Source of the DNA: Bacteroidales bacterium
GTDB lineage: Bacteria > Bacteroidota > Bacteroidia > Bacteroidales > UBA932
Reading direction: 5' to 3'
Length of the DNA: 64,000 nucleotides
Assembly: GCA_017415715.1 (NCBI GenBank)
Contig: JAFQFD010000046.1
Coordinates: forward strand, 62,001 to 126,000
In this document: piece by piece, positions 6,920 to 58,039 of the stretch
Layout: every line of letters begins with the position of its first letter
Numbering within the stretch: the stretch's first letter is position 1
The notes under the pieces: generated by a model
The model's input: only the letters and a program-made list of their open reading frames with translations
Databases searched by the model: none
What the model was told of the DNA's origin: nothing
Made by a program: the position numbers and the translations under genes

Positions 6920-7031
6920 ACCGGCGTGACATGAATTTGCGGTTTCATGTCACGCCGGTCTTCTTTTTGCCCATATTTTGCCAAATTCACCCACCGGCGT
7001 GACACAAAACATGGATTTCATGTTACGCCAC
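6920..7031. repeat. Paired-hairpin intergenic element, copy 1 (type A)
   Basis: The first hairpin has a perfect 16-bp stem, ACCGGCGTGACATGAA (6920-6935) with its complement at 6944-6959 and an 8-nt loop. A spacer of about 36 nt follows, then a second, weaker hairpin (GGCGTGACA at 6996-7004 with TGTTACGCC at 7021-7029, one mismatch). Compared with copies at 54417 and 57930 the asymmetric spacer is in the reverse orientation. Confidence 0.8.
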
Positions 7032-7063
7032 ATAAATGGATCGTTTATGGCGGAAAGAGAAAG

Positions 7064-7176
7064 CGTCCGGCAGAAAAAAGGCTGATTTTATGTCGGACGG
7101 TGCCTGTTTCAGGGAATTATACACCATTTTCGGGACCGTCCGACATGTTTTCAGGCGATCTGGTGATGGACGGTCC
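7064..7176. repeat. Paired-hairpin intergenic element, copy 2 (type B)
   Basis: CGTCCG (7064-7069) pairs with CGGACG (7094-7099). After the spacer, GGACCGTCC (7133-7141) pairs with GGACGGTCC (7168-7176). The whole stretch aligns by eye with 12831-12943 at roughly 85% identity. It sits 40 bases beyond the 3' end of the first DUF169 gene. Confidence 0.8.
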
Positions 7177-7216
7177 GGAAATGGGAGAGTATCTTGCAGA
7201 TAAATAGGAATTTAGC

Positions 7217-7927
7217 TTATTTGTTAATTCTTCTCTTCAGTGCAGACAATGCCTTCTGATATAAGGCGGAATCATTCATTGTGTCTAGCATTTCCTTGAA
7301 ACGACTCATCGGGATAGTGAATGTAAGTTCGTTTTCCGGTACAAGCGGGCGTGCAGAAGGATCGAGCATTCCGAGGAAACATCTGCGGCCGTAGTTCTGG
7401 TTTTCGTTAACAGCAAATGTTATTATCGAAGCGCATCCTGATGCAAATAGTGTCGTTACCGCATCGGGTGAGTTGTTGTCATAGAAAGACCATGTGCAGA
7501 GTCCTGACAGGATGTCCGGAGTAGCAAAGAAGATCATAGCCTCGGCATCATCCCAACTGCTTAGCTTATCAACTCTGACAAAGTTTAGATATGGTTTGTC
7601 GGTAAGAGTGATTGCAAGCGAATCCACATAATCCTTGACCATCTCTTTTGTCTTCTTGTAATGCTCGACTTCAGAAACAAATACCGGAACCCTTTCAGGC
7701 ATAGGTCTGAATGCAGTGTAGAGTCCGCCGCCTCCGCAAAGCACGTTGTCTGCACAGAGCGTCAATGAATCTCCATAGCGGACTTTGGAGACGGCACCTA
7801 TCATGCATTTCGGAACAGACTTTATATCTGTAGCCGGTGTGATGCTATATGCGAATGAGACAGGTAGGGGAGCAGCGTCACCGAATGCTTCTCTGAACTT
7901 TATGATGAATTCCTGTATTGTCATCAT
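7217..7927 (-). CDS. DUF169 family protein, copy 1
   Basis: A 236-residue soluble protein with the DUF169 pattern: an N-terminal PVSFAY strand, a central cysteine/glycine stretch (CADNVLCGGGGLYTAF), and conserved mid-protein segments (ATPDILSGLCTWSFYDN, FASGCASIITFAV). DUF169 proteins have no agreed function; their cysteines suggest metal or cofactor binding. It follows the HExxH membrane protein by 12 bases on the same strand and probably shares its promoter. A second DUF169 gene lies at 11982. They are diverged paralogues, but their promoter regions are alike. Confidence 0.8.
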   Translation of the reverse strand: MMTIQEFIIKFREAFGDAAPLPVSFAYSITPATDIKSVPKCMIGAVSKVRYGDSLTLCADNVLCGGGGLYTAFRPMPERVPVFVSEVEHYKKTKEMVKDYVDSLAITLTDKPYLNFVRVDKLSSWDDAEAMIFFATPDILSGLCTWSFYDNNSPDAVTTLFASGCASIITFAVNENQNYGRRCFLGMLDPSARPLVPENELTFTIPMSRFKEMLDTMNDSALYQKALSALKRRINK

Positions 7928-7939
7928 CCTCCTATTATT

Positions 7940-8455
7940 TTATATGTTTCTTTCACTTTCATCGCTGAACATCATCCTGTACTTTGGCAACACGATTTTC
8001 CAGAATACAAAAGCATTGACTATAAGCAGGATGCCATACGCTATGCGTGCATAGACCACGGGAATGAGATAACCTATTCCATTCATGTCTCCACCGCCGA
8101 AGAATCCGCATAGCACGCTCAGGTACAGCGGATCAAGAAGCAGCAAGGCGAGTGTGGTATAATATGCACATGTCTTCAAGACCTTGGAATGTGACCTGCT
8201 GATAATTCCGATCAGAGCTATAAGAATATATGCGGCAACGAATGTCGCTACAGAACCGACAAGGCAGAAAACGCCAAGTTGGCTCTGCGACATACTGTCA
8301 TGGAATATATCGATCTGGATGCCTAATCCCATGAAGTTGATCTGCTTGAAAGCACCGACGGACAGTGCATAAACCAAATGTGCTCCTTCGTGAATCAGAT
8401 AGTAGGCCAGGATAGCCGTAAACAATCCGATGTATTGTCTGACCCTTTTGCTCAT
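7940..8455 (-). CDS. Putative membrane metalloprotease with HExxH motif
   Basis: A 171-residue integral membrane protein with about four hydrophobic segments. HEGAH (residues 22-26) lies at the end of the first segment and an LLLDPLYLS stretch near residue 108 could supply a third zinc ligand. This is the layout of small M50-like (site-2-protease-like) membrane proteins, although the usual NPxxP-type motif is not clear. No substrate can be suggested. It leads a two-gene unit with DUF169 copy 1, behind a TAACTTTG box. Confidence 0.55.
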   Translation of the reverse strand: MSKRVRQYIGLFTAILAYYLIHEGAHLVYALSVGAFKQINFMGLGIQIDIFHDSMSQSQLGVFCLVGSVATFVAAYILIALIGIISRSHSKVLKTCAYYTTLALLLLDPLYLSVLCGFFGGGDMNGIGYLIPVVYARIAYGILLIVNAFVFWKIVLPKYRMMFSDESERNI

Positions 8456-8500
8456 TTCAATAATGATTATGGTTTTAAGATAAATCTTGTAGTCAAATCC

Positions 8501-8563
8501 CGATTAATCTGCCCAAAGTTAGATAAATTCGTTTGGATTATAAAGGATTACTGTTGTGAATCA
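8501..8563 (-). promoter_or_regulatory. Duplicated promoter region, copy 1
   Basis: Contains a -7 box reading TAACTTTG on the minus strand (8514-8521). The surrounding 63 bases align with 12724-12785 upstream of DUF169 copy 2, with about three quarters of positions shared, including GATAAA just upstream of the box. It would drive the HExxH-DUF169 pair. Confidence 0.6.
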
Positions 8564-8609
8564 GTGTGACATTCGCTACCCATGGGAAACTGGTTGCTAA
8601 TTGGGTATA

Positions 8610-8700
8610 GTGGACGTTTTGTCCACGAAAAGGGGAGGTTGGGTGGACAAGGTGTTGAATATTCTGGTTTTGTCCACGGGAATGGCGTTTCCGTGGACAA
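8610..8700. repeat. GTGGAC/GTCCAC hairpin cluster (type C paired-hairpin element)
   Basis: Alternating GTGGAC and GTCCAC words form nested or alternative hairpins: 8610-8615 with 8621-8626 (5-nt loop), 8643-8650 with 8670-8677 (8 bp), and 8672-8678 with 8692-8698 (7 bp). The second and third share an arm, so they are mutually exclusive. It lies just past the 3' end of the flavoprotein gene. The organisation is like copies of types A and B, with an unrelated stem sequence. Confidence 0.7.
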
Positions 8701-8718
8701 TAGGGTGGAAGGTAATTT

Positions 8719-9354
8719 TTACATTTCAGCCATCTTTCTGCCGGCATCGAATGCCTTCTGCAGGTCCTCTTCCCAATGTGCATCACGCCATTGACGTTTT
8801 GCCTCTTCTGAGAACCCTGCGAGTTCATAGCGGCTGTAGTCATTTACCTGATATGTGTTGTATGCTACGATCTTCTGAGGCTGGCCGAGTGCTCTTGTGA
8901 TGCAGTATTCCATGGAGCCGAAGCCGTTGCTGTTGTTCCTTTCAGGTGTTCCGTTCAAGGTCTCTATCAGGACAACAGGCATCTGTTTCGGTGCAGTCAT
9001 GCTGTAGTCATTATACGATAGCCAAGGGAAAGACAATCTCTCAAGAAAGGCACGCATCTGGCCGGTCACTTCGCCGAAGTAGATAGGGGAGCCAAGTACA
9101 AGGCCGTCCGCCATGGATATTTCCTCGAGAACAGGTGAGAGCCTGTCCTTGAATCTGCAGACGTTGGATGCTCTGTCTTTCAGTTTGCAGGCCATGCATG
9201 ACATGCATCCTTTATAGTCCATGTCGTACAGGCGAATTGTCTTGACCTCGATGTGTTCGCCGGCAGATTTTGCGCCTTCTGCGAATTTCTGCAGCATCTG
9301 CGCTGTGTTCATGTTGCGGCGTGGACCGCCGTCGATGATTATTATCTTTTTCAT
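8719..9354 (-). CDS. Iron-sulfur flavoprotein / NADPH-dependent FMN reductase family
   Basis: A 211-residue flavodoxin-fold protein. The N-terminal IIDGGPRRNMNTAQML is a phosphate-binding loop for FMN. CMSCMACKLKD (about 50-60), with another Cys near 66, is the compact cysteine cluster of iron-sulfur flavoproteins, and GLVLGSPIYFGEVTGQMRAF is the second flavin-binding region. Members move electrons from NAD(P)H or ferredoxin to quinones or other acceptors. The isoprenylcysteine-type methyltransferase lies 39 bases upstream on the same strand, so the two may be co-transcribed. Confidence 0.85.
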   Translation of the reverse strand: MKKIIIIDGGPRRNMNTAQMLQKFAEGAKSAGEHIEVKTIRLYDMDYKGCMSCMACKLKDRASNVCRFKDRLSPVLEEISMADGLVLGSPIYFGEVTGQMRAFLERLSFPWLSYNDYSMTAPKQMPVVLIETLNGTPERNNSNGFGSMEYCITRALGQPQKIVAYNTYQVNDYSRYELAGFSEEAKRQWRDAHWEEDLQKAFDAGRKMAEM

Positions 9355-9393
9355 ATCCTACTGTTTTTCTTCTTGCTTGATATATTCATGCCA

Positions 9394-10065
9394 TTACCAT
9401 ATAAATGGAATCACCTTATACTTTACCCGCTTCATGTACTCCTTGTAACCGTCCAGACCTTCTGAAAGGACTGTCTCCTCATTCCGGATCCTCTTGGCGA
9501 TCACGGGTATGTATCCGAGCATGATGATGAAGGATATCGGAGATCCGAGGACCAGCGGCATTGATAGAAACATGATGACTGTAGCCATATACATCGGATG
9601 ACGCACAATGCCATATAGTCCGGTATCAATGACTTTCTGTCCCTCCTGAACTTCGATGGTTCTGGAGAGGTACTCGTTTTCCCGCAATACTTCCGCATAT
9701 AATAAGTAGGAGAGAATAAAGAGGACAGCGGCCGTCCATACAGTCCAGTCCGGCAACAGCCACCAATCGAACTTCCAGTTCAGACCTGCGGTGACGAATG
9801 ATAGAGTGAAAAGCAGACCACTTAATGCCACAACTGCCTTCTGCTCTCCTTCTTTCTCTTTGGCATTCAGCCTTTTACGGAGCAGGTCCGGATTCTTGGC
9901 AAGCATGACAATTCCTGCGAAGAACATCGGTACAAACAGGACGCCCATCAAAAGCCATCCCTGCCAATAAGCAAATGATCCTGCAGGCAGAAACACCAGC
10001 AGTCCTATCAGTAAGATCCCGGCAAGAAATTTAATCAATGCTTGTGTCAATAATGTCTTGTTCAT
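9394..10065 (-). CDS. Isoprenylcysteine carboxyl methyltransferase-like membrane protein
   Basis: A 223-residue protein with four or five membrane helices and the family's C-terminal core: GLYGIVRHPMYMATVI (the RHPxY S-adenosylmethionine site) and a C-terminal RIRNEE..L..GLDGYKEYMKRV segment. This is the ICMT/PEMT-like methyltransferase fold, common in bacteria with unknown small lipophilic substrates. It precedes the flavoprotein gene on the same strand and has a TAACTTTG box about 115 bases upstream. Confidence 0.85.
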   Translation of the reverse strand: MNKTLLTQALIKFLAGILLIGLLVFLPAGSFAYWQGWLLMGVLFVPMFFAGIVMLAKNPDLLRKRLNAKEKEGEQKAVVALSGLLFTLSFVTAGLNWKFDWWLLPDWTVWTAAVLFILSYLLYAEVLRENEYLSRTIEVQEGQKVIDTGLYGIVRHPMYMATVIMFLSMPLVLGSPISFIIMLGYIPVIAKRIRNEETVLSEGLDGYKEYMKRVKYKVIPFIW

Positions 10066-10178
10066 ATTTGATTCGTGTTATTCTGCTCGCTACCTCTTCC
10101 GGATTGTCGATAAGACGTGGCCCTGTTCTTTGTATTACAAAAATGTTTTTGCGACATCTCAGTCACGATCTACGTTTG

Positions 10179-10186
10179 CAAAGTTA
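10179..10186 (-). promoter_or_regulatory. -7 promoter box for the methyltransferase/flavoprotein genes
   Basis: Reads TAACTTTG on the minus strand. It lies 113 bases before the ATG at 10065, which would leave a rather long leader. The 269-base gap between genes (10066-10334) otherwise holds only the two hairpins at 10241 and 10286. Confidence 0.45.
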
Positions 10187-10240
10187 TCAGTATCAGTGAA
10201 TATATACAATAGCTCACCTGGGTCTTCGTGAAAAGATGGA

Positions 10241-10266
10241 TTGGGCTTCAGCTTACTAAAGCCCAA
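10241..10266 (-). terminator. Hairpin beyond the HXXEE gene
   Basis: TTGGGCTT (10241-10248) pairs with AAGCCCAA (10259-10266), with a 10-nt loop. It is the second of two hairpins downstream of the gene ending at 10335. Confidence 0.5.
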
Positions 10267-10285
10267 TGCCGCTTTATATACAACG

Positions 10286-10311
10286 AATCCCCGACACGAA
10301 TGCCGAGGATT
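10286..10311 (-). terminator. Probable terminator of the HXXEE gene
   Basis: On the minus strand AATCCTCG pairs with CGGGGATT (8 bp with one G-T pair, 10-nt loop), 24 bases after the stop. Only a short T-rich tract follows. Confidence 0.5.
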
Positions 10312-10334
10312 GTAATTGTTAGATAAATTGGAAT

Positions 10335-10949
10335 TTATTTCCCAAGTCTCTGCTTAAGCTTGGCGAACATATCTTTGTATCTCAATCCTATCGTAGCCAT
10401 CAGCGAACGTTGCATAATTGCGAAGCAGGCAAGGAACACAAAGGGGCCGAAAGTGTAGTCGTACCACGCTCCAAGATGGTTTACAGCCAGATAGACGATC
10501 AGGAAGATTCCGCTCACTAATTCGAACTCTGCTGTCACCAATCCCGGTGTATAGGGCTTTTCCAGTTTGAAAATCTTGATGCCTGCTACGTGGATGCACC
10601 CTTCGAAGATGCAGAAGGTGGCCATCGCTACCGGAAACATCGGAATCCGGTCTCCGAAAAAGAACGGGATGATGGTGATAACGAAGATAAAAACAGCTGT
10701 GATCAGGCGGCTGCCAAGCTTTGTATCTGTATCAAGTTCCATCTGCAGGACATTCTTTTGCATAAGGTCAAGGAATCCTCCGGGATACCGGCCCTCTTCC
10801 CATTCGTGCAGGATGCAAAGGAACGCAACCCACACGGCTGCCTGCTGGATAACGGTCAGGTTATCCATAAACATGGCGACCAAGGTGATCAGCAACATGG
10901 AGATCACGGTATAGATTTCCAGTGCATAGTGTTTTAAGAACTTTCCCAT
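10335..10949 (-). CDS. HXXEE domain membrane protein
   Basis: About 204 residues with five or so hydrophobic segments. HEWEEGRYPGGF near residue 53 matches the HXXEE motif that names this uncharacterised membrane family, and a later CIFEGCIHVAG segment may complete a metal-binding site in the membrane. Function is unknown. The ATG at 10949 is preferred. A longer frame can open at a TTG at 10973, but that codon is part of the -7 box TATCTTTG. Confidence 0.75.
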   Translation of the reverse strand: MGKFLKHYALEIYTVISMLLITLVAMFMDNLTVIQQAAVWVAFLCILHEWEEGRYPGGFLDLMQKNVLQMELDTDTKLGSRLITAVFIFVITIIPFFFGDRIPMFPVAMATFCIFEGCIHVAGIKIFKLEKPYTPGLVTAEFELVSGIFLIVYLAVNHLGAWYDYTFGPFVFLACFAIMQRSLMATIGLRYKDMFAKLKQRLGK

Positions 10950-10970
10950 AATTAAATTGCTTTTCTGTTG

Positions 10971-10978
10971 CAAAGATA
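10971..10978 (-). promoter_or_regulatory. -7 promoter box for the HXXEE gene
   Basis: Reads TATCTTTG on the minus strand, with TTTG further upstream (10996-10999) at a 17-base spacing. It decides the start of the downstream gene in favour of the ATG at 10949. Confidence 0.6.
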
Positions 10979-11075
10979 CGTCAGATAGGGGCTTTCAAAG
11001 TTATCTTTTTCAATGAACAAATGTACGATTCCTACGATTCCCACCCAAAACGGCTGCTTTGATTGTATTTAAACG

Positions 11076-11083
11076 TATATTTG
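11076..11083 (+). promoter_or_regulatory. -7 promoter box for the AraC regulator
   Basis: TATATTTG, 20 bases before the ATG at 11104. The upstream TTG at 11059 lies before this box, so the longer frame is unlikely to be the real start. Confidence 0.6.
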
Positions 11084-11103
11084 CACGGAGAATCCATCAA
11101 TCA

Positions 11104-11973
11104 ATGCGTACAAAGCCTGACTCCCTTCATCCATCTGACCTGCTCAATCTTCCCGGCAGCGGGAAAGATTTTGTCGTATCGGATGACATCACAATTTTCC
11201 GCACGCTTGAGCCGCTGAAGGCAGCTTCTGCTGCCGAACACCTTCACATTCCGCAGTATGTAGAATTAGGCCGGATAGTGCTGGTCACAAGTGGGAAAGG
11301 TATTCACAACATTAATCTGGTGCCTTTTGAGACAGAGGCAGGAGACGTTCTTGTCATCCCGCAGCATACCTATATCAGCATTTCGACGCTATCCGATGAT
11401 TATGACGGGCAGATGGTCTCGTTCAGCCACTTGCCAATAGACTTTGAGAAGTGCGCCCGGCTTCGGCTTCAACAAGAAGATCTCCACCGCATCGGGCATT
11501 ATGTGGACCTCCTCTGGGAGGTTGTTCAGCGACCCTATGACAGACAGACGGTAGAGCACATGCAGGCGGCTCTCCTGTATGACCTAAAGCTCTTGCACGC
11601 CCATCAGTCCATTGAAAGCACCGCAAAACTCAGCCGGGGGCAACGCATTCTCCAGCAGTTTCTGGATGCTCTTGGCAGGAAAGACCCTCTCCCTCGGAAT
11701 GTAAAAGCCTACGCAGACCATCTCTGCATAACTCCCAATCATTTGTCTGCTGTTATCCGAGAGCAAAGTGGCCGCAGCGTAATGGACTGGCTCAACGCCC
11801 ACTGTATCCTTCGGGCACAGGTGCTACTGCGTCACACCGACCTTTCCATCTATCAGATAGCCGACACGCTGGGATTTCAAAGCGCGACCTTCTTCTCACG
11901 CTTCTTTCATAGAGAAACCGGGATTACACCGAAAGAATATCGGGCTGGAATTGAAGGGAAAACGGAGCGATAA
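11104..11973 (+). CDS. AraC-family transcriptional regulator
   Basis: About 289 residues. The N-terminal half is a cupin-like sensor (GIHNINLVPFETEAGDVLVIP). The C-terminal hundred residues hold two helix-turn-helix motifs, ending in the AraC signature (IADTLGFQSATFFSRFFHRETGITPKEYR). It should bind DNA and respond to a small ligand. It is divergent from the HXXEE membrane protein and convergent with DUF169 copy 2, so either neighbour could be a target; this is inference from position only. Confidence 0.9.
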   Translation: MRTKPDSLHPSDLLNLPGSGKDFVVSDDITIFRTLEPLKAASAAEHLHIPQYVELGRIVLVTSGKGIHNINLVPFETEAGDVLVIPQHTYISISTLSDDYDGQMVSFSHLPIDFEKCARLRLQQEDLHRIGHYVDLLWEVVQRPYDRQTVEHMQAALLYDLKLLHAHQSIESTAKLSRGQRILQQFLDALGRKDPLPRNVKAYADHLCITPNHLSAVIREQSGRSVMDWLNAHCILRAQVLLRHTDLSIYQIADTLGFQSATFFSRFFHRETGITPKEYRAGIEGKTER

Positions 11974-11981
11974 ATTGCGAT

Positions 11982-12713
11982 TTATCGATTCATCAATGGT
12001 TTCCAGATGTATGTCGTCAGGAATGATTTGTCCATGTTTGCTACCATTCGCTCGAACATCGCTGCGGCGAATGAGAAGGTCAGGAGGTCGGATTTGACGC
12101 AGGTTCTCATTGCTGTGTCCATGCCTCCGAGGATTGCACGAGGATTCTCCTTTCGAGCCTCGTCGAATGCAAATGTCAGCATCTGCTCGCAGCCCGAGCC
12201 GAACGGAACTATTACATTGTCGATCCTGGTGTTGTCGAAACTTGACAATGTATGAAGTGCCGAGATGACATCCGGTTTTGCAAAGACACAGTAGATGACA
12301 GGATTGTCGTTTTCTGTAAGCAGGTCTAGCGGTTTGAATATCACATATCTTCCAGTCGGATGAGCGACGGGGTTGATCTGGTGGAGAAGGTTGGTCTGCT
12401 CTCTGTCGATCTTGAACTTCTCGATGTTTACAAGAAGATCTACAGTGATGTCTTCCTGATATGGTCCGCCGAACAGGTTACGGAGTGCTCCCCAGCAGCC
12501 TATGTTTTCGGCATCGAATGCGAGTGCTGTTCCATGATGTACCTTTGAAAGCTGTGCAAACAGGCATACATATCCTCGCTTGCTTTGGGGTGGTGCAGGT
12601 GCATATTCCGCTCCGCAGAGTTCATCTGAATAGAAAACTGCAACAGGCATTTCAGCCTGTGGGAAATACTCGCGCCATTTTGCGACTGCTGTATCTCTGA
12701 AATTTATATTCAT
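11982..12713 (-). CDS. DUF169 family protein, copy 2
   Basis: A 243-residue paralogue of the protein at 7217. It shares the N-terminal PVAVFYSDELCGAEYAP strand, a FDAENIGCWGALRNLFGG stretch, the middle FAKPDVISALHTLSSFDN (compare ATPDILSGLCTWSFYDN in copy 1) and FGSGCEQMLTFAFDEA (compare FASGCASIITFAVNEN). The cysteine of the glycine-rich block is kept but its context differs. Function unknown. It is transcribed alone, from a promoter region that resembles that of the copy 1 operon. Confidence 0.8.
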   Translation of the reverse strand: MNINFRDTAVAKWREYFPQAEMPVAVFYSDELCGAEYAPAPPQSKRGYVCLFAQLSKVHHGTALAFDAENIGCWGALRNLFGGPYQEDITVDLLVNIEKFKIDREQTNLLHQINPVAHPTGRYVIFKPLDLLTENDNPVIYCVFAKPDVISALHTLSSFDNTRIDNVIVPFGSGCEQMLTFAFDEARKENPRAILGGMDTAMRTCVKSDLLTFSFAAAMFERMVANMDKSFLTTYIWKPLMNR

Positions 12714-12723
12714 AGCTCACTTC

Positions 12724-12785
12724 CGATTTATCTGTTCAAAGGTAGATAAAATCGTGTTGATTACAATGGCTGTCATTATGAATCA
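12724..12785 (-). promoter_or_regulatory. Duplicated promoter region, copy 2
   Basis: The -7 box reads TACCTTTG on the minus strand (12737-12744). The surrounding bases align with 8501-8563. It would drive DUF169 copy 2. Confidence 0.6.
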
Positions 12786-12830
12786 TGGAGACTGTTTGCG
12801 CCTCGTCGGTCATTGGTGACAAGAGGGGAA

Positions 12831-12943
12831 TGTCCGGCAGGAAAATGGCTGATTTTATGATGGACGGTGTCTGTTTTAAAGGATTATGCACCTTTTTCGG
12901 GACCGTCCGACAGGTTTTCGTACGATTTAGTGATGGATGGTCC
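12831..12943. repeat. Paired-hairpin intergenic element, copy 4 (type B)
   Basis: A short first hairpin (TGTCC at 12831 with GGAC near 12862) is followed by the spacer and a second hairpin (GGACCGTCC at 12900-12908 with GGATGGTCC at 12935-12943). One G-C pair of the copy at 7133 is replaced by a G-T pair here, so the stem is kept. It lies 21 bases beyond the 3' end of the CDF transporter gene. Confidence 0.8.
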
Positions 12944-12964
12944 AGAAAAGGGAAAGTGCAGGAG

Positions 12965-13861
12965 TTACAGTGAGTCCTGATCCGGTTCTATATGGATGTT
13001 GATCTGGGTTTCATTGCCATATTTCTCTTTCAGGGCATTTTCTACATCTGTGGCAATGTTGTGCGCTTCGGTAACTGAAATATGGGGGTCAACTACTATA
13101 TGAGCATCTATTATATATGAAATGCCATTCCGACGGGTCTTCAGTTCATGAATGTTTTCGACACCCTGAACAGAATTGGCGATGCTGATGATGTCCTTTT
13201 CGATTTCCTCCGGCAACGATGTTTCAAGGAGTTCTGCAAGGCTTGGAAGGGACATTTTGACCGCAACGACTATGATTGCAATGCTGATGCAGCATGATGC
13301 TATCGGGTCAAGTATTGTCCACTTTTCTCCGAGAATCATAGCGCCGGCAATGCCTGTCAAGGCTCCGATTGAGGAAAGCGCGTCACTTCTATGATGCCAT
13401 GCATTGGCCAATACGACCGGACTGTTTGTTCTTCTGGCTGTGCGGATTGTGGCATGATATAGAATTTCCTTGATGATGATGGATCCGATTGCCGCCCATA
13501 ATGCAATACTCCCAGGAAGCGGAATACTGTTTCCGTTCATTACACCGATGATGCTTGCAACCCCATCTGCCATCAATTTTGCTCCAACGGCAACCAATAT
13601 CACACTGACAATGAGGGTAGCCATGGTCTCGAATTTGCCATGCCCAAACGAATGATTCTTGTCTTTTCCTTTGGACGATATGTGAGTAAAGACCAGAACG
13701 ACAATATCGCTGAGCAAGTCAGAGAGAGAGTGGATTCCATCTGCAACCATAGCTGCACTACGTCCCAATACACCTGCAATTATCTTGAATATTGTCAAGA
13801 TAATATTTACTATGGCTCCGACGACTGTTATTCGTCTGATTTCCTGTCCTCTATCATGCAT
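12965..13861 (-). CDS. Cation diffusion facilitator (CDF) metal exporter
   Basis: A 298-residue protein with six membrane helices and a cytoplasmic C-terminal domain. The metal-site motifs are plain: DGIHSLSDLLSD in helix 2 and WHHRSDALSS in helix 5 (H/D-xxx-D pairs typical of zinc-selective members). The C-terminal domain carries SVQGVENIHELKTRRNG and ends in an acidic histidine-containing stretch (INIHIEPD). It should export Zn2+ or a similar divalent cation with proton antiport. It stands alone; no metal-responsive regulator is adjacent. Confidence 0.93.
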   Translation of the reverse strand: MHDRGQEIRRITVVGAIVNIILTIFKIIAGVLGRSAAMVADGIHSLSDLLSDIVVLVFTHISSKGKDKNHSFGHGKFETMATLIVSVILVAVGAKLMADGVASIIGVMNGNSIPLPGSIALWAAIGSIIIKEILYHATIRTARRTNSPVVLANAWHHRSDALSSIGALTGIAGAMILGEKWTILDPIASCCISIAIIVVAVKMSLPSLAELLETSLPEEIEKDIISIANSVQGVENIHELKTRRNGISYIIDAHIVVDPHISVTEAHNIATDVENALKEKYGNETQINIHIEPDQDSL

Positions 13862-13954
13862 AAATAGTCAAATCCTGTTCATCGATGTAAACTTACATAA
13901 AAAGAATATGCGGTGTTGCTTGTCATGCCCGAATTGATCGCTCATATCTATGTG

Positions 13955-14068
13955 CAGCGGCGTTACATGAAATGGCAAATATATGTCACGCTGATGGCTG
14001 AAATGGTCATTTTCACCCTGAAAAGTGTAGCGGCGCTACATGAATCAACGTTTTTGTGCAACGCCGCT
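13955..14068. repeat. Paired-hairpin intergenic element, copy 5 (type A variant)
   Basis: The first hairpin is CAGCG (13955-13959) with CGCTG (13989-13993), extended inside by ACAT/ATGT around a small bulge. After a spacer of about 35 nt, the second is AGCGGCG (14029-14035) with CGCCGCT (14062-14068). ACATGAA occurs in both hairpins, as in type A copies, while the outer stem has changed. Confidence 0.7.
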
Positions 14069-14079
14069 ATTGTTGCCCG

Positions 14080-14275
14080 TCATGCTTGCCCGTCATGCTT
14101 GCCAGTTCGTCCTGCCTGTTCGTTATGTCAGTCCGCCTTGCCCGTCCCTGTTCGTTGTCCTTGACGCTTTTAGTCATGCCCGACCCGATCGGGCATCCGG
14201 ATCCCCGGTCGAGCCGGGGATGACGACCAATAGCCGGGGATGACGACAAAAGGTCGGGATGTCATTGTGAGCCCG
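14080..14275. repeat. Short-repeat cluster between CDF and esterase genes
   Basis: The remaining part of a 423-base gene-free stretch. It holds a repeated CGTCATGCTTGCC unit (14088 and 14096 region), a hairpin GCCCGA/TCGGGC (about 14177-14193), ATCCCCGG/CCGGGGAT (about 14200-14221), and two tandem AGCCGGGGATGACGAC units. The GTCATCCCCG theme also occurs at 6887. These look like dispersed repeats; no coding frame is evident. Confidence 0.6.
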
Positions 14276-14284
14276 GGTTGGCGG

Positions 14285-16631
<2,347 letters not shown>

Positions 16632-24247: not shown

Positions 24248-24430
24248 TGGTTCGACTTTGACTGCGGCAGGTCTTCTGACTTGTCCGTCTGCAGCGCCTT
24301 CCCGCCCGAAGGGCAGTGGCGTAGAATGCCGCAGACGAGGCATGGCCTCAAAGGACTCACAGCTACGGGCATAGTTCCGGATCTGCACCGGATTCCCTTT
24401 TCAAGAACGCCCGGGAAGCTTCCCGCCGTT
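24248..24430 (-). ncRNA. Cobalamin (AdoCbl-type) riboswitch
   Basis: On the minus strand, the conserved core elements appear in order: GGGAATCCGGTGCAG (24397-24383), TCCGGAACTATGCCCGTAGCTGT, the B12-box-like GCCACTG (24320-24314), GGGAAGGC, and AGTCAGAAGACCTGCC (near 24283-24267). It sits in the leader of the TonB receptor, about 40 bases before the ATG, as expected for translational or transcriptional repression by cobalamin. No separate terminator was identified. Confidence 0.93.
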
Positions 24431-24447
24431 CTCACCACAATCCGACG

Positions 24448-24455
24448 CAAATTTA
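24448..24455 (-). promoter_or_regulatory. -7 promoter box for the riboswitch-btuB transcript
   Basis: Reads TAAATTTG on the minus strand, just upstream of the riboswitch core and within 20 bases of the stop of the next gene. Confidence 0.6.
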
Positions 24456-37587: not shown

Positions 37588-37629
37588 AATTTGTAGTGAT
37601 AAAACCCACGCGTTTTATCACTACAAATT
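37588..37629. promoter_or_regulatory. 18-bp perfect inverted repeat over the DUF4250 promoter
   Basis: AATTTGTAGTGATAAAAC (37588-37605) is repeated in inverse at 37612-37629, with a 6-nt centre (CCACGC). The right arm overlaps the minus-strand -7 box TAAATTTG (37624-37631). It can be an operator for a dimeric regulator or a leader hairpin. Confidence 0.8.
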
Positions 37630-51889: not shown

Positions 51890-51897
51890 TAATTTTG
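51890..51897 (+). promoter_or_regulatory. -7 promoter box for the 51920 gene
   Basis: TAATTTTG, 22 bases before the ATG at 51920. Confidence 0.5.
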
Positions 51898-51919
51898 TCG
51901 TACACTTCAATGATATTTT

Positions 51920-52456
51920 ATGATTATAGTTTATGTAAACAGCCAGACGGATACCGATACCTTCTCTCGACTTTATGAGGGTATGGAAGGTAGTACACTG
52001 CTGTATAATCCTACTCGACAGGAAGTAGAGAAGGTCCTGTCCGAAAGACCTGAGGAAAGAGTCATGCTTTTCGGGCATGGAACCGCCTTTGGACTGATGA
52101 ATGAAGACCTCAGTGGATATCTTATTGACAAAGATACCGTTCCTTTGTTGAAAACGAGGGAAGTGATAGGCATATGGTGCTATGCGAGTGACTTTGCCCA
52201 GCGTAATGAACTGACCGGCTTTTTTACATATATGTTCATAAGCAATCCCATGGAGGCCTATACATTGGGATTTGCTCCCTATGAAGAAGAAGTCGTGTTT
52301 GACGAGAACAGAAAGTTCGCAGCCGGTGTGCGTGGCCTTATAGAGGAAGGTGTTTCATTGGACCAATGGCCTTACATGTTGCTTGACGGTTGTAATGAAG
52401 AACTGGATTTTGTGTTATTCAATTATGCCAACCTTGTGTATCTGGAAGGAGAATAA
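51920..52456 (+). CDS. Possible caspase-fold (CHAT-like) small protein
   Basis: A 178-residue protein without close recognised relatives. RVMLFGHGTAFGLM puts a His-Gly (His53) after a hydrophobic strand, and REVIGIWCYASDFAQ puts a Cys (Cys87) after the next hydrophobic strand. A His-Gly then a strand-terminal Cys is the catalytic layout of caspase/gingipain/CHAT peptidases. The domain is small for that clan and the idea is unproven. A gene for an HD-related protein follows after 6 bases. Confidence 0.5.
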   Translation: MIIVYVNSQTDTDTFSRLYEGMEGSTLLYNPTRQEVEKVLSERPEERVMLFGHGTAFGLMNEDLSGYLIDKDTVPLLKTREVIGIWCYASDFAQRNELTGFFTYMFISNPMEAYTLGFAPYEEEVVFDENRKFAAGVRGLIEEGVSLDQWPYMLLDGCNEELDFVLFNYANLVYLEGE

Positions 52457-52462
52457 TGACTT

Positions 52463-52837
52463 ATGGAAGAATTAAAGATTAAATTTCAGGAAAAGCTTCT
52501 CTCTGCTCAGAGAGAGGGGATGGAAAATGTGATCAGGCATCTTGAACGCCTGGGATTTTTCGATGCTCCGGCATCTACAAGGTTTCATTTGAATGTCAAG
52601 GGTGGATTGATGTTGCATTCGTGGAACGTATGCAACACAGCCCTCATGCTTCTTGCGCTCGGCCTTAAGCTTACAAAGGATGAAATGCTGGCGATAAGGT
52701 GGCATATGACAGCCTGGGACCTTCCGTTCCATAGTTCTGAGCAGAAAGCCAATCTGCAGATGGCCAGGGAACAGGCGCCGCTCTGCACTGTCATCCAGTG
52801 CGCCGACAGCCTGTCGACATCGCTTCTTGAAGATTAG
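52463..52837 (+). CDS. HD-related protein with the catalytic middle deleted
   Basis: A 124-residue protein. Its start (HLERLGFFDAPASTRFHLN, then GGLMLHSWNV) and end (LTKDEMLAIRWHM, then TVIQCADSLSTSLLED) match the two ends of a family of about 200-residue HD hydrolases. The section between, which holds the HD metal-binding pair (typically LLHDLCK) and the following loop, is absent. The two parts are joined in frame after LMLLALGLK. It is either a decayed gene or a reduced non-catalytic form. It converges on the oxidoreductase gene with no gap. Confidence 0.6.
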   Translation: MEELKIKFQEKLLSAQREGMENVIRHLERLGFFDAPASTRFHLNVKGGLMLHSWNVCNTALMLLALGLKLTKDEMLAIRWHMTAWDLPFHSSEQKANLQMAREQAPLCTVIQCADSLSTSLLED

Positions 52838-53812
52838 TTATTCATCATATGGATATCTCACGCCCCATTCTTTTCTGAGATCATCCATCTGCTTCATAAT
52901 GCTTATGGTTTCCTCGTGAGGCATCATCGGGGATTCCATAAGCTTTTCTTTTATGCACCTTCGGCATTCGATCACCTGGTATTCATATCCGTTTACCATG
53001 TCGTCATCCTTGGTGTATCTTTCCACAAGTTCATAGTTCCTGTATACTTCGACGACCTCCGGACAGTTGATGTTGTCGACTTTAATGTAGCCTTCCGTGC
53101 CGCTGATTATGCCTTGCCTGTCATTCAGGCAAAGAGCTCCCGACTGGAGATTTGCCATCTTCCCGTCAGCGAATGAAAGTGATATGCTTTCGTGCATGTC
53201 CATTCCTGATGGCCCCAGGTGGCAGTTTGTAACGGTTTTGACAATGTCTGTTCCGAAATACATTCTGGCGAAGTTCAGGGTGTAAACTCCGAGGTCCAGA
53301 AGCGCTCCTCCGCACAGGTCGTCGCGGACGATCCTCTCCTTGTTCTCCATCATATAGCATAATGTCGCAGTGAGGACCCTCGGCTCTCCTATGATACCGC
53401 TCTCCATGATTTCCCTGACCTTGTGGGAGAGTGGCATATATCTGGTCCAGATCGCCTCTGTTATGAACAGACCTTTGCTCTTTGCGGTCTCAATGAGTTC
53501 CTTCGCCTGTCTGGCATTGGCGGTGAAAGCCTTTTCCACAAGGACAGGCTTTCCGTGTTCCAAGGCAAGCATTGCGTGGTCATAGTGATGCGAGTGCGGA
53601 GTTGCTATATATACAAGATCAATATCCGGGTCGCATACCATCTCCTCATAGCTCCCGTAAGCCTTTCTGATATCATGCTCTGCTGCAAATGCTTCTGCTT
53701 TCTCCGTTGTGCGTGAAGCGACTGCGTATATTTCTATATCTGTAAACGGGGCGATTGCATCGCACATTTTCTCTGCAATCCATCCAGCACCTATGATACC
53801 GATTCTGAACAT
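52838..53812 (-). CDS. Gfo/Idh/MocA-family oxidoreductase
   Basis: A 324-residue NAD(P)-dependent oxidoreductase. The N-terminal Rossmann motif is IGIIGAGWIAEKM, then YIATPHSHHYDHAMLALEHG and VEKAFTANARQA (conserved EK). The C-terminal half is the usual mixed-sheet domain. Sequence resembles the trans-1,2-dihydrobenzene-1,2-diol dehydrogenase-like branch. Substrate unknown, probably a sugar or cyclitol. It precedes the GAF protein by 4 bases only in map order; on the minus strand the GAF gene comes first, so the two are probably co-transcribed. Confidence 0.9.
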   Translation of the reverse strand: MFRIGIIGAGWIAEKMCDAIAPFTDIEIYAVASRTTEKAEAFAAEHDIRKAYGSYEEMVCDPDIDLVYIATPHSHHYDHAMLALEHGKPVLVEKAFTANARQAKELIETAKSKGLFITEAIWTRYMPLSHKVREIMESGIIGEPRVLTATLCYMMENKERIVRDDLCGGALLDLGVYTLNFARMYFGTDIVKTVTNCHLGPSGMDMHESISLSFADGKMANLQSGALCLNDRQGIISGTEGYIKVDNINCPEVVEVYRNYELVERYTKDDDMVNGYEYQVIECRRCIKEKLMESPMMPHEETISIMKQMDDLRKEWGVRYPYDE

Positions 53813-53816
53813 ATTC

Positions 53817-54284
53817 TTAACCTATTAATGAGACGATTTTCTCAAGCCATTCTTTGTCTGTCTGGTCAAAAGTATTGAATTCCGTGCTGTCGATGTCCAG
53901 CACTGCGATCACCTTCTTTCCTTGAAATACCGGGACCACAATCTCACTGTTTGAAGCGCTGCTGCATGCTATATGGCCGGGAAACTTGTGTATGTCCGGC
54001 ACTATGACGCTTTCAGCCCTTTCCCATGCCGTTCCGCAGACGCCCTTGCCAAACGGAATCCTGGTGCACGCGACGGGACCTTGGAAAGGTCCAAGAACCA
54101 GCTGGTCTGATTCCTGTTCCACGCGGTAGAAACCTGTCCACCAGAATCCGAACTCCTCATGCAGCAGAGCGGACATGTTGGCCATATTGGCAATAATGTC
54201 GCTCTCACCCTCGACGAGGGCCTGTATTGTCTGGAATATAGTCGTGTATTTGTCAGCCTTGTTCATCTCTTCGTGATTTTTCAT
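53817..54284 (-). CDS. Free methionine-(R)-sulfoxide reductase (GAF type)
   Basis: About 155 residues from an ATG at 54284. The GAF domain carries the fRMsr blocks GPFQGPVACTRIPFGKGVCG and FPGHIACSSASNSEIVVP, which hold the three conserved cysteines. It reduces free Met-R-sulfoxide with thioredoxin. A second methionine-repair enzyme (MsrA) is encoded at 55892. Confidence 0.92.
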   Translation of the reverse strand: MKNHEEMNKADKYTTIFQTIQALVEGESDIIANMANMSALLHEEFGFWWTGFYRVEQESDQLVLGPFQGPVACTRIPFGKGVCGTAWERAESVIVPDIHKFPGHIACSSASNSEIVVPVFQGKKVIAVLDIDSTEFNTFDQTDKEWLEKIVSLIG

Positions 54285-54416
54285 GTCATAAATATAAGCA
54301 CAATGTTTCAATCAGGTATGATACTTTTGTATTTTTGTGTTCACGAAATCCTTTGATATCGTTCTGATATTTCTGTTGTCATCTACATCTGCGGCGATCT
54401 GAAATCAATTTACAGG

Positions 54417-54527
54417 CTGGTGTGATAAGAAAGTGATGGATTGTGTCACGCCGGTGCCCGATTCTCCCCAAATCTGCATGAAAACGAGACCGGTGTGACA
54501 TGAATATGTACTTTCATGTCACACCGG
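54417..54527. repeat. Paired-hairpin intergenic element, copy 6 (type A)
   Basis: The first hairpin is CTGGTGTGA (54417-54425) with TCACGCCGG (54446-54454), using G-T pairs. After the spacer ending AAAACGAGA, the second is perfect, CCGGTGTGACATGAA (54490-54504) with 54513-54527 (15 bp, 8-nt loop). It lies between genes at 53817 and 54550, 23 bases after the 3' end of the latter. The rest of this gap (54285-54416) holds nothing I recognise. Confidence 0.8.
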
Positions 54528-54549
54528 CCTTCATTCCCGTCCATGCCTG

Positions 54550-55083
54550 TTACCAAACGGCATCGACTGCAGGTATGTACTTCAGTCTGGTGTTCTTGTA
54601 CGAGAATCCTTTTGTGTCAATGGCCCACATGGCCCCAGAATTGATGTTTATCAGAAGGATATTGTCAGCCCCGTCAGCATATCGAATAAGCTGATAATTG
54701 ACTGTGTCGTGGTCCCAGATCCAATCTTCAGGTGTATTGTCTCTGAGTATGTTCCATCGTACATGCTCACCTTTGTGGTAAGTCACCAATGATACCTGTC
54801 CTGTGTATTTGTCAAGGAAATACTTGCCGAGATTCTCTATACGGGAACCTCCGAGGGATGTCTCCGACTTCATGCCGAAAGCTTTCTTCAATTCCTGCTC
54901 AAGCGTCGGTCCGGACTTCACCACCTCCTTCTCCACTATCTTCTCTTTAGGCTCTTCCTTTTTCTCCTTCTTTTCTTCTGATCCGATCTTTATGGAAACG
55001 TTCTGAGCTGAGACTTCGTGTGATGAAAGTAATGCAGGCATGACCAGCAGCATGATTGCTGCAGATAAAAGAATCTTCTTCAT
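54550..55083 (-). CDS. Unknown secreted protein
   Basis: A 177-residue protein with a signal peptide (about 1-26), a Lys/Glu-rich linker (EEKKEKKEEPKEKIVEKEVV, about 36-55) and a folded C-terminal part with a GEHVRWNILRD strand and SGAMWAIDTKG. No family was recognised. It is followed by a paired-hairpin element. Upstream, 55084-55228 has no clear gene, though one frame reads protein-like for about 50 codons. Confidence 0.7.
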   Translation of the reverse strand: MKKILLSAAIMLLVMPALLSSHEVSAQNVSIKIGSEEKKEKKEEPKEKIVEKEVVKSGPTLEQELKKAFGMKSETSLGGSRIENLGKYFLDKYTGQVSLVTYHKGEHVRWNILRDNTPEDWIWDHDTVNYQLIRYADGADNILLININSGAMWAIDTKGFSYKNTRLKYIPAVDAVW

Positions 55084-55228
55084 AGCTGTTGATTTAAGGG
55101 TTGGACATGCAATGCAATAATCAAATTATATGCCATATATCCGTCTGCTACTTCGTCCCATGGCACATGTTCATTCGGATGTTTCTGTTGTGGAACATGT
55201 ATGTCAATGTAGAAGGGAGAATATTGCG

Positions 55229-55879
55229 TCAGTTGGACTTGGATTCTGCTAATCTGGATATATCCCGGCACTCGATTCCTGCCTTGTGGTATCCTTTTTT
55301 TGATACTGCAATCATTGCGTCGGCGACTTCGCTCATTCTGTTCCACATGCCGATGAGTTTGAAGAATGGATACATTGCCCAAAAGGCATACTGCATTTTC
55401 TGGATGCGTTTCTGGCCTTTGTACCGCCACATGATGGCAGGACGGAAGTTATATGCCCCCTTGAATGGCATGGCAACCAGCGCATCTTCTGTGCTTTTCT
55501 TTATGCGCACCCACATCTGCTTGGTGTTCTTGTAGTTACCTGCACCGCTCAGATATACGAATGTCATATTCTCCTTCGGACCGACAATGTCGGCAAAATG
55601 AAGAGGGATGTCATGGCTTATGCCGACATACTGTTCTTCCTTGAGCCCGACGCTGCTGATGCCTGCGATGAAGAACACCGCGTCATATCCCTGAAGTTTC
55701 GGATCCCCGGCTTCAAGTTTCATGAAGTCCGGCACTATATACTCTTCAAGTTTCGGATGAACATGACCGCATGGCCTTCTGCTGACGCTGAGGACCTTTT
55801 CTACCTCCGGATTGTCAAGGCATGAAAGCATGACGCCTTCGCCCACATAACCGGTTGTTCCTGTGATGATGATTTTCAT
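55229..55879 (-). CDS. NAD(P)-binding atypical SDR (epimerase-like)
   Basis: A 216-residue Rossmann protein: KIIITGTTGYVGEGVM (TGxxGxxG) at the N-terminus, VFFIAGISSVG and FVYLSGAGNY in the middle. The YxxxK of classical SDRs is not obvious, as in the atypical class. Function unknown. It follows the MsrA-AlkD gene by 12 bases and is probably in the same transcript. Confidence 0.82.
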   Translation of the reverse strand: MKIIITGTTGYVGEGVMLSCLDNPEVEKVLSVSRRPCGHVHPKLEEYIVPDFMKLEAGDPKLQGYDAVFFIAGISSVGLKEEQYVGISHDIPLHFADIVGPKENMTFVYLSGAGNYKNTKQMWVRIKKSTEDALVAMPFKGAYNFRPAIMWRYKGQKRIQKMQYAFWAMYPFFKLIGMWNRMSEVADAMIAVSKKGYHKAGIECRDISRLAESKSN

Positions 55880-55891
55880 AGTTGCTGTTAA

Positions 55892-57067
55892 TTAAATCTG
55901 CATGAATATCTTCCTTTCCTCTGCGCTGAATTTCTCGATGGCGTAGCGGAGGGTGGTGCGTGGCATTTTGCCTTTATAGGTGTTCAGGAATGATACGAGG
56001 AGACTCTTGTCGCGTTTGCCGACCTCGCGGAGCATCCAGCCTACGGCCTTCTGCATCAGGTCGTGCTTTGTTCCGAGGAAGATTTTCGCAAGTTCGATGG
56101 TGTCTGCGAATTGGCCATGGCGAATGAGCATCAGTGTGGAGACGACTGCAATGCGTTGTTCCCACATGACCGGGGATTGTGCGAGAGTGTATAGCACGCT
56201 ATGATCTTTATGCTTGACCAGATAGTCTCCTAAAATGTATGGTGCAGAAAGGTCCACCAGGTCCCAGTTGTTGATGCCTTTGAGGTGCTTAAGGTAGAAT
56301 TGTACGGCCTCTTCCGGTGCCTTTTTGTATTTCTCGATGAGAATGAGCAGTGCGCAGAGCCTGCATTCGTGCCATTCGCTTTCCAGTAGAGCTTCTATAA
56401 GTTCGTATGAGGCTTCTTTGTGGGTCTTTGCCACCTTGCGGGTCTCTGGTACGACTACTCCGAGGAACTTGTCGCCTTCTCCGTATTGGCCTTTGCCGGT
56501 CTTGAAGAAGCGTGGCAGCACGATCTTCTTCTCTTCGTCCGATGCTGCTATGAGATTGCGCATGATCTCTCCATATTCCTTTGCCAGTCTGAGGGTGGAC
56601 AGTGAAAGATGACAATATCCCTCGGGATTCTTGACCAGGTAGTCTTGATGATATTCTTCTGCCGGATAAAAGAACTTCAGCGGCCCTTTTTCTACGGCCA
56701 ATGGCTCTCCATAGGCCAGTTGCACCTCTTCATATACCTTCTCGACGTCGGCCCGGTCGGCCTCGTCGGTCCAATATATTCCGGTCCTGTACCTTGTGCC
56801 GCAGTCATTGCCCTGACGGTTTATCGAAAGGGGATTGATGGACCTGAAGAAGAGGCGGCAAAGCGTCGCAAGGGATATGATCCGGTCGTCATATGAAACC
56901 CTCACGCACTCCACATGTCCTGTCTTGTCTGTGTATACCTGCTGATACGTCGGTTCCGCGAGGTCCCCGTTGGCATATCCGGTCTCAGTCTCGAGCACGC
57001 CTTCAAATATTCTCATATAATGCTCTGTGCCCCAGAAGCATCCGCCTGCGAAATAGATATGTTTCAT
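55892..57067 (-). CDS. Fusion of peptide-methionine (S)-sulfoxide reductase and AlkD-like DNA glycosylase
   Basis: One uninterrupted 391-residue frame. Residues 1-155 are a full MsrA: catalytic Cys in GGCFWGTEHY (Cys10), NRQGNDCGTRYRTGIYW, HQDYL, and a possible resolving Cys152. Residues 165-391 are an AlkD-type HEAT-repeat glycosylase, with NNWDLVD (Trp268, Asp272), WEQRIAVVS (Arg305) and KAVGWMLREVGK (Trp344), the residues that hold and excise alkylated bases in AlkD. Both halves look active. It would repair oxidised protein and alkylated DNA. The two proteins are normally separate. Confidence 0.88.
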   Translation of the reverse strand: MKHIYFAGGCFWGTEHYMRIFEGVLETETGYANGDLAEPTYQQVYTDKTGHVECVRVSYDDRIISLATLCRLFFRSINPLSINRQGNDCGTRYRTGIYWTDEADRADVEKVYEEVQLAYGEPLAVEKGPLKFFYPAEEYHQDYLVKNPEGYCHLSLSTLRLAKEYGEIMRNLIAASDEEKKIVLPRFFKTGKGQYGEGDKFLGVVVPETRKVAKTHKEASYELIEALLESEWHECRLCALLILIEKYKKAPEEAVQFYLKHLKGINNWDLVDLSAPYILGDYLVKHKDHSVLYTLAQSPVMWEQRIAVVSTLMLIRHGQFADTIELAKIFLGTKHDLMQKAVGWMLREVGKRDKSLLVSFLNTYKGKMPRTTLRYAIEKFSAEERKIFMQI

Positions 57068-57070
57068 GTG

Positions 57071-57277
57071 TTATTGTCTTTTGAATGGGCGTCGGATCCT
57101 GATGGTGTTCCGGTCGTAGTTGTATATATGAGCGAACAGGCTTATTGCGTCGCGCAGCGTCCATCCGGACGCGATTTCGCCTTCGGCATCTGCGTATACT
57201 GTATATGCAGTATGGAGGTCGAATGTGACAGGCTCGAATGTCTGTACGGTCTTGACGTTTAGAAACAGTGTATCCAT
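57071..57277 (-). CDS. Small unknown protein upstream of MsrA-AlkD
   Basis: About 68 residues from the ATG at 57277 (the frame stays open to 57361, but that region is the divergent promoter area). It contains FDLHTAYTVYADAEGEIAS and ends in a basic RNTIRIRRPFKRQ. No family recognised. It lies 3 bases before the fusion gene and likely begins that operon. Confidence 0.55.
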   Translation of the reverse strand: MDTLFLNVKTVQTFEPVTFDLHTAYTVYADAEGEIASGWTLRDAISLFAHIYNYDRNTIRIRRPFKRQ

Positions 57278-57493
57278 AATCAAATGCTTTGTGTTTAGTC
57301 GTTTACGTGCCATTTGATCGTGGATGGCGAACCAGAACAGTTCAATCGGCATTTCCGACACGACAAAGTTATGTTTTCTTTGGTTTTATTCAAACATTTT
57401 GCTTTCTTTGTGATGAATTCTTCAGGTTCGCAGTCCTCGATCAAATTGCAGTTATCAATGTTTAATTGTCGAAAGACGCAAAATGACTGTATT

Positions 57494-57916
57494 ATGAGAC
57501 AGAACCATTTCCTGGTGTCCATCAAGACTGTAGATGACACCCCGTTATTCCCCAAGTCTTTTAATGGGGAAATGTACCTTTTCCATACGGTAATCAGCAC
57601 CGCGTCACGCTTTGGAGTCATCTCCAAGGGATTCGCATCATTCCCGACAGGAGTTGAAGCTGTGATATGCTGCAATGACGTAAAGGAAGCCAAGAAGTTC
57701 GCAGATGGAGTCAGCAACCAGCTATACGCGAAGACCAATAGTCTCGGACATATCATCGAAAGCTTTGGTATACACATCGGAGAACTGACTGATGACGAAA
57801 GGACATTGGAAGCCGTGATGATGGACATGATGATGCGAAGCATGGCATCGCGTGGTGTCAGCCTGGACGATGTGCCGACTATTAAAATGGATATGGACGG
57901 AAAGATCGTGAGCTGA
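57494..57916 (+). CDS. Unknown 140-residue protein
   Basis: From the ATG at 57494 the protein begins RQNHFLVSIKTVDDTPLFPK and continues with FHTVISTASRFGVISKGFAS; a long acidic/methionine-rich helix (TLEAVMMDMMMRSMASRG) follows. The frame is open back to 57314, but the earlier part does not look like the same protein. No family recognised. A paired-hairpin element follows the stop. The 216 bases between this and 57277 should hold two divergent promoters, though no clear TAnnTTTG box was found. Confidence 0.55.
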   Translation: MRQNHFLVSIKTVDDTPLFPKSFNGEMYLFHTVISTASRFGVISKGFASFPTGVEAVICCNDVKEAKKFADGVSNQLYAKTNSLGHIIESFGIHIGELTDDERTLEAVMMDMMMRSMASRGVSLDDVPTIKMDMDGKIVS

Positions 57917-57929
57917 TTGCTGTTGTTGA

Positions 57930-58039
57930 CCGGTGTGACATGATTCTTGTGATTTTGTGTCACGCCCGTGCCAAATTTGTCCTAAATCAGCCTTAAAACG
58001 AGACTGGTGTGACATGAAAGTGCTTAATCGTGTCACACC
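57930..58039. repeat. Paired-hairpin intergenic element, copy 7 (type A)
   Basis: The first hairpin is CGGTGTGACA (57931-57940) with TGTCACGCC (57958-57966). After a spacer ending AAAACGAGAC, the second is GGTGTGACA (58006-58014) with TGTCACACC (58031-58039). It fills the gap between two convergent genes and touches the stop of the HD gene. Confidence 0.8.

Follow-up and report, generated by a model that had tools for sequence, protein, structure and literature searches.

Two-hairpin elements recur in the intergenic gaps of this Bacteroidales genome, and they raise the question of what they are and what holds their two halves at a fixed distance. The window, i.e. the whole stretch of 64,000 nucleotides analysed here, covers positions 62001-126000 of contig C44 in a 2.58-Mb genome of 56 contigs that is 86% complete (G000). 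The initial annotation had named seven places, and hairpin-forming elements are present at all of them; it treated types A, B and C as variants of one family, either REPIN-like and mobile or serving RNA processing or termination. We consider it probable that the elements are REP doublets, partners of RAYT-type Y1/HUH enzymes that would recognise both palindromes jointly as a helically phased duplex; families A, B and C each have a RAYT of their own. How REPs spread and why RAYTs persist is an open question, on which the geometry of these doublets may bear.

Paired palindromes of the window and their copies

Types A and B share one layout: two 40-bp palindromes separated by 33 bp, with starts 73 bp apart. 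Type A doublets, each supported by alignment, model search and the scanner described below, lie at 6920-7032 (palindromes 6920-6959 and 6993-7032), 13956-14068, 54416-54528 and 57929-58042; in the last of these, one extra base in the first palindrome gives a period of 74 bp. The type A palindromes, about 40 bp long, are imperfect in the aligned copies. Type B doublets lie at 7062-7174 (palindromes 7062-7101 and 7135-7174) and 12829-12941; both were found by the scanner and among the extracted copies, and a palindrome pattern also matched the former and the second palindrome of the latter. The element at 8610-8699 departs from the layout claimed for all three types. It is a degenerate piece of a type C array with GTGGACA/TGTCCAC arms and a 50-51-bp period, matching arrays beside a RAYT gene on contig C33. 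None of the seven is assigned a strand.

A motif-free, sequence-blind scanner for paired similar palindromes, with spacing left free between 60 and 89 bp and a maximum score of 72, recovered six of the seven elements at scores of 51-63 and a spacing of 73 bp (74 bp once). Three shuffles of the window reached 50 at most, and type C was missed in the scanned range of spacings. Seeking paired similar palindromes with the spacing left free offers a way of discovering such families without a motif.

Other palindromic sequences were also seen. A short palindromic stretch with GATCGGGG at about 6880-6923, directly before the 6920 element, has numerous matches in genomes G074 and G034, so that another small repeat family borders this element. 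A perfect 18-bp inverted repeat at 37588-37629, with 6 nt between its arms, is unlike types A, B and C. On the same contig, outside the window, a palindrome pair with TTTGTCCGA arms (L141:13395-13518) has a score of 61 and a period of 79 bp.

A covariance-model search, as proposed in the initial annotation, found further copies beyond the window. The model of 11 type A copies identified at least 13 distinct doublets in the source genome, four of them in the window and five on its contig; the number is a minimum, since the scoring covered 60 of the 300 candidates from the first look. It matched 10 of 61 genomes of the genus, three of them weakly (G007, G035 and G050), and no doublet was apparent in the weak matches of G007 and G050. 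A strict type A palindrome pattern occurred in six of 400 genomes of the genus, with one-strand counts of 22 in G000, 20 in G074, 4 in G146, 3 in G034 and one each in G038 and G350; the matches in G146, G038 and G350 differ in loop or stem. For type B, the palindrome pattern gave 33 matches in the source genome against one for a control pattern. Twenty-eight of these pair into 14 doublets, 13 at 73 bp and one at 74 bp, and including the second window copy brings the total to 15, of which 14 have a 33-bp spacer. Types A and B are therefore present as the many dispersed intergenic palindromes expected of a REP/RAYT system. The same doublet layout occurs with other stems in other genomes, e.g. 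ACCTCCGTGACAT, ACCACCGTGACA, ACAGCTGTGACA and CGGGTGCTACAT. At least four window copies (6920, 12829, 13956 and 57929) have counterparts at the matching place in the sister genome G074. The GT[AG]G tetranucleotide that defines canonical GTAG-type REPs was found within 6 nt of the hairpin foot at none of 52 type A feet and at one of 60 type B feet.

Gene context was taken from simple ATG-based ORF calls and not from curated genes. Among 16 copies in the source genome (13 A, two B and one C), ten lie between codirectional genes, five between convergent and none between divergent genes, and one is at a contig end; for comparison, gaps longer than 100 bp in the same stretches are codirectional in 39 cases, convergent in nine and divergent in 14. 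Placement near gene 3' ends had been described initially; by our own count on these ORFs 11 of the 16 copies lie at most 30 bp from a stop codon. The search for empty sites in relatives, another proposed check, gave no clean case. A type A copy on contig C23 is absent at the matching place of G074 and G034, where the local sequence differs otherwise too, and for the 5 kb around the type A RAYT gene there are no matching flanks in either genome, only a related RAYT and short repeat matches.

RAYT genes of the three families

As the initial annotation suggested, the genome encodes RAYT-type proteins, and for all three types such a gene lies between or beside matching elements. The Pfam model PF01797 was rejected as a route to these partners. 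Its three RAYT-like ORFs in the source genome (on C13, C34 and C24) partner none of A, B and C; no doublets were found at the first two, and the one on C24 is accompanied by a doublet whose stem sequence is its own, with a period of 73. A profile of 13 RAYTs of the genus was therefore needed, and it gave 11 matches at 10 places in this genome.

The type A gene at C10:55919-56836 (minus strand) is an intact RAYT-like frame of 306 aa with HTH at 50-52 and YILRNA at 107. It is flanked by type A doublets at C10:55822-55934 and 56846-56958, and the gene end overlaps the first. A reading of this gene as broken by internal stops was rejected: in most cases the profile match had run past a gene's proper stop codon, and one stop precedes the gene. 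Its product is 71% identical to that of a RAYT gene at G029:C34, which itself lies between doublets of the G029 dialect. The type B gene on C28 is cut by the contig start, with a type B doublet lying 64 bp downstream; the intact sister gene at G074:C165 (93% identical over 137 aa) has type B doublets on both sides. On C33, arrays of type C-like GTGGACA/TGTCCAC arms with a 50-52-bp period lie on both sides of the RAYT gene. A Y1/HUH gene flanked by its own repeat is thus found for type A on C10, for type B on C28 and in G074:C165, and for type C on C33. The three types are separate families, each with a RAYT, and not variants of one; the idea of a REPIN-like, putatively mobile family stands in substance. 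The case for REPs, as far as sequence comparison carries it, is borne by shared layout, subfamily sequences and RAYT linkage, despite the absence of covariation reported below.

All 22 proteins compared, from the A/B clade and the relatives closest to it, have HxH and Y..RN motifs, corresponding to the HUH pair and the predicted catalytic tyrosine. The type A versions are ATHTH and YILRNA, with threonine and not a hydrophobic residue in the middle of HxH. Neither the type A nor the G029 protein had a Pfam match at E values up to 1; of the two, the G029 protein alone matched an NCBIfam RAYT model (E 0.0085). Other RAYT-like loci in the source genome are on C6, C9, C12 and C34:21061. Loci related to the RAYTs of this genome come nearly all from metagenome-assembled genomes of gut and rumen Bacteroidales, including Candidatus Cryptobacteroides and Coprenecus. 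Ten genomes of the genus had 4 to 14 RAYT-like profile matches each (some places match twice), and a wider RAYT profile matched in 62 of 118 sampled Bacteroidota genomes. Long tandem palindrome arrays with periods of 73 and 72 bp lie on both sides of the RAYT genes at L119 (G047:C14) and L129 (G032:C3), respectively.

Spacing in helical turns and phased A/T tracts

We scanned 146 RAYT loci, two of which occur in both sets (L243 = G074:C20 and L251 = G350:C27), giving 144 distinct loci. Doublets were accepted at a score of at least 54 within about 1 kb of the RAYT gene; those above 95 bp and those with AT-rich arms were excluded by rule. Doublets were found at 97 of the 144 distinct loci of this gut Bacteroidales set, and 47 of the 146 scanned loci had none of this score. 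The distances between palindrome centres were 42 bp (3 doublets), 51 (23), 52 (27), 53 (5), 62 (2), 66 (2), 68 (1), 71 (2), 72 (7), 73 (17), 74 (2), 82 (1) and 85 bp (5). Ninety-four of the 97 fall at 42, 51-53, 62, 71-74 or 82-85 bp, i.e. about 4, 5, 6, 7 and 8 helical turns, and 94 deviate by no more than 2 bp from a multiple of 10.4 bp, where 38% would be expected if distances were uniform. The 85-bp class (5 of 97) is off whole turns by 1.8 bp. Both doublets at 66 bp belong to loci that closely resemble each other, and there the palindromes fall within open frames and possibly represent coding repeats; the one at 68 bp is on a Gemmatimonadaceae contig. Shuffled DNA contained no doublet scoring 54 or more, and its 15 weaker hits had a Rayleigh R of 0.27.

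Clustering the proteins at 40, 50 and 60% identity (11, 17 and 64 clusters) gave R of 0.756, 0.767 and 0.85, respectively, at a period of 10.4 bp, and the best period across cluster levels was 10.5 to 10.7. Spacing class clusters on the RAYT phylogeny: a quickly built tree of 143 RAYTs, without bootstrap and with some long branches, requires 8 changes for the 97 of 99 rows placed on it, where shuffling gives 38.5 on average, and a tree of 65 RAYTs requires 6 changes, compared with 16.9 after shuffling. The Rayleigh values, the RAYT tree and the p value given below still include the two duplicate loci. A spacing rule for the whole phylum was also considered and found unsupported. At 29 RAYT loci from other Bacteroidota, five had any paired palindromes, at 40, 42, 57, 60, 63, 72 and 86 bp, and no doublets were seen at 12 RAYTs from a different clade of the genus, so as far as seen the rule belongs to one RAYT branch.

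The spacers carry a second periodic signal. Mean pairwise spacer identity between copies is 37% in type A and 42% in type B. Among 33-bp spacers, the only ones taken for this test, the A/T share at positions 6-8, 16-18 and 26-28 is 0.99 in type A (n=11) and 0.96 in type B (n=14), compared with 0.44 and 0.38 at the remaining positions; none of 5000 shuffles and none of 5000 shifts matched the observed share. The three tracts are 10 bp apart, and AAA, TTT and mixed tracts interchange, accounting for 7, 15 and 10 of 33 in type A. Three further dialects (n=6, 6 and 4) have tract A/T shares of 0.98, 0.98 and 0.94. The motif AAAA-G-GAC, initially taken to orient the element, is present in only two of the four type A copies of the window (54416 and 57929); being one of three tracts that recur as A or T, it gives no general orientation.

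Similar tracts are seen in RAYT-flanking doublets of both major classes. The 7-turn doublets have tract peaks near -41, -31, -10, 0, +10, +31 and +41 from the midpoint, and the 5-turn doublets near -26, -5.5, +5.5 and +26. Doublets of 5 and 7 turns showed A/T autocorrelation at lags 10-12; spacer-tract autocorrelation was absent from the 8-turn set (n=7). The A/T spectrum averaged over dialects peaks at 10.4 bp (5-turn), 10.2 bp (7-turn) and 10.6 bp (8-turn), and in each of the dialects A, B and G029 taken singly a stronger peak near 14.5 bp comes from the arms. Helical-turn spacing together with in-phase A/T in the absence of conserved spacer sequence points to double-stranded DNA shape as the probable object of selection. 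Whole-turn phasing is hard to explain by single-strand recognition alone, and the phased tracts suggest that elements known for processing as single strands also pass through a stage of curved duplex DNA.

Alternative readings and known systems

Under the reading that we prefer, the doublet would form a helically phased, probably curved duplex with both palindromes on one face of the helix, and a RAYT multimer, perhaps aided by a DNA-bending protein, would hold the two together. Hairpins or cruciforms would then form at the palindromes, with cleavage by the tyrosine of the active site, and rare copying events would spread doublets, mostly to gene 3' ends. We are evenly divided on a broader statement for the long-RAYT clade, whose type A branch is invisible to the Pfam Y1 model. 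Here the doublet would serve as a double-stranded synaptic platform with a whole-turn spacer and an A/T tract every turn, selection would target the shape of the DNA rather than the sequence of the spacer, and size would change mainly by whole turns (4 to 8).

It is unlikely, if still worth weighing, that these are host-used chromosome elements, i.e. REPs whose phasing is kept by a nucleoid protein or gyrase binding the duplex, with the RAYT only as their source. Phased A/T tracts without sequence conservation would fit a DNA-bending protein, and the BIMEs of E. coli are reported to be gyrase targets. Yet spacing class follows RAYT clade, and a single host protein would not obviously maintain several spacings. 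The phasing may serve the RAYT, a host bending protein or both; families of about 51, 62 and 73 bp lie side by side in the source genome with different RAYTs, which favours the RAYT. Several families with different turn numbers in one genome are natural replicates.

Somewhat less probable again is that whole-turn spacing is a relic of a few ancestral lengths combined with chance, no selection on phase being involved. The loci are related and independent origins are therefore few: with only 8 class changes on the tree, a conservative test that takes ten values as independent origins and keeps off-phase ones gives p 0.006, the choice of the ten being our own. Against this, the phasing of A/T in the spacers is a second signal, seen in five dialects and in the autocorrelation of the 5- and 7-turn classes. 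Small length changes do occur within classes (51-53 and 71-74 bp), yet the ranges between classes are almost empty.

We regard it as quite improbable that the elements serve mainly as RNA terminators or processing signals at gene 3' ends, the function that had been offered as an alternative to mobility. Their position near 3' ends, their absence between divergent genes and a T-rich stretch after the first hairpin of the 6920 element would suit such a role. As to terminator-like matches in the 5400-15500 part of the window, where five of the seven elements lie, only that of the first 6920 hairpin is strong; a 5-pair match at 7130 also lies inside an element. At Rfam gathering thresholds the only match in the window is a cobalamin riboswitch outside the elements (24249-24454, minus strand, 100.6 bits). 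Stems that fail to covary had been named in advance as evidence against the family, and within type A this is the case, as 11 copies show no excess of covarying pairs. Stem positions pair in 81.3% of cells versus 80.3% after shuffling, a value reached by 108 of 500 shuffles, and pairs changed on both sides number 11 versus 8.0, reached by 37 of 500. Moreover, the period and the phased tracts are features of duplex DNA, and the RAYT linkage also argues against an RNA role.

The orientation of the two halves bears on one further reading. Among 5-turn doublets, 33 are direct, 15 inverted and 7 ties, and among 7-turn doublets 10, 17 and 2. In an orientation test from which L085, L095, L097 and L098 (frame slips or near-duplicates) and the G040 set (39-bp palindromes) were left out, type A leans direct (sum +22 over 13 copies, p 0.023), type B gave p 0.096, and G029 leans inverted (p 0.09); the inner arm ends are the better conserved ones in types B and G029. 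Hairpin ends of IS200/IS605 elements are in direct orientation, and two similar hairpins at a fixed distance with the direct lean of type A would agree with miniature elements of this kind moved by an ordinary TnpA, which we nevertheless consider very improbable given that orientation is not significant in type B and that the linked genes are single-copy RAYT-like frames of about 306 aa with a whole doublet on each side, not one hairpin per end.

REP doublets with RAYT partners thus remain the preferred reading, and they can be compared with three described systems. In Pseudomonas fluorescens SBW25 (Bertels and Rainey 2011, PMC3116915), REPINs are described as doublet units with a specific RAYT for each family; GI doublets have a fixed distance of 71 bp, and length is said to outweigh spacer sequence. 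Inverted doublets make up 93% there, and further distances, among them 110 bp, are also described. The elements reported here likewise are doublet units with a fixed distance and one RAYT per family, so that fixed length alone is not new. They differ in that each half is a long palindrome and in their whole-turn spacings and phased A/T tracts; helical phase is not mentioned in the parts of that paper at hand. Palindrome dimers with GTAG or CGTC ends (Di Nocera et al. 2013, PMC3733652) are, in the portion of the article consulted, also intergenic, most 20-100 bp apart, mostly head-to-head and variable in distance, whereas GT[AG]G is absent here.

A further relation is to TnpA-REP subclass 2.6, or RAYT group 5, of Bacteroidetes (Quentin et al. 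2018, PMC6006769), which according to the text available is flanked by atypical secondary structures free of GT[AG]G, with copies elsewhere in the genome. Host phylum, flanking structures without GT[AG]G and dispersed copies are the same. The proteins fall outside that subclass: its members have a median of 179 aa with NH[LIV]H and YIH[QN]NP motifs, whereas ours have about 306 aa with (A/S)TH.H or SNH.H and Y..RN(A/P), and doublet layout and spacing are not described for subclass 2.6 in the same text. As far as their accessible text goes, RAYT chemistry in the cited papers is on single strands, and in the open-access literature searched, itself seen in part, we found no paper on helical phasing of REP doublets. 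While GTAG-free hairpins with RAYTs were already known from Bacteroidetes, what is new is the geometry, namely whole-turn spacing combined with phased tracts.
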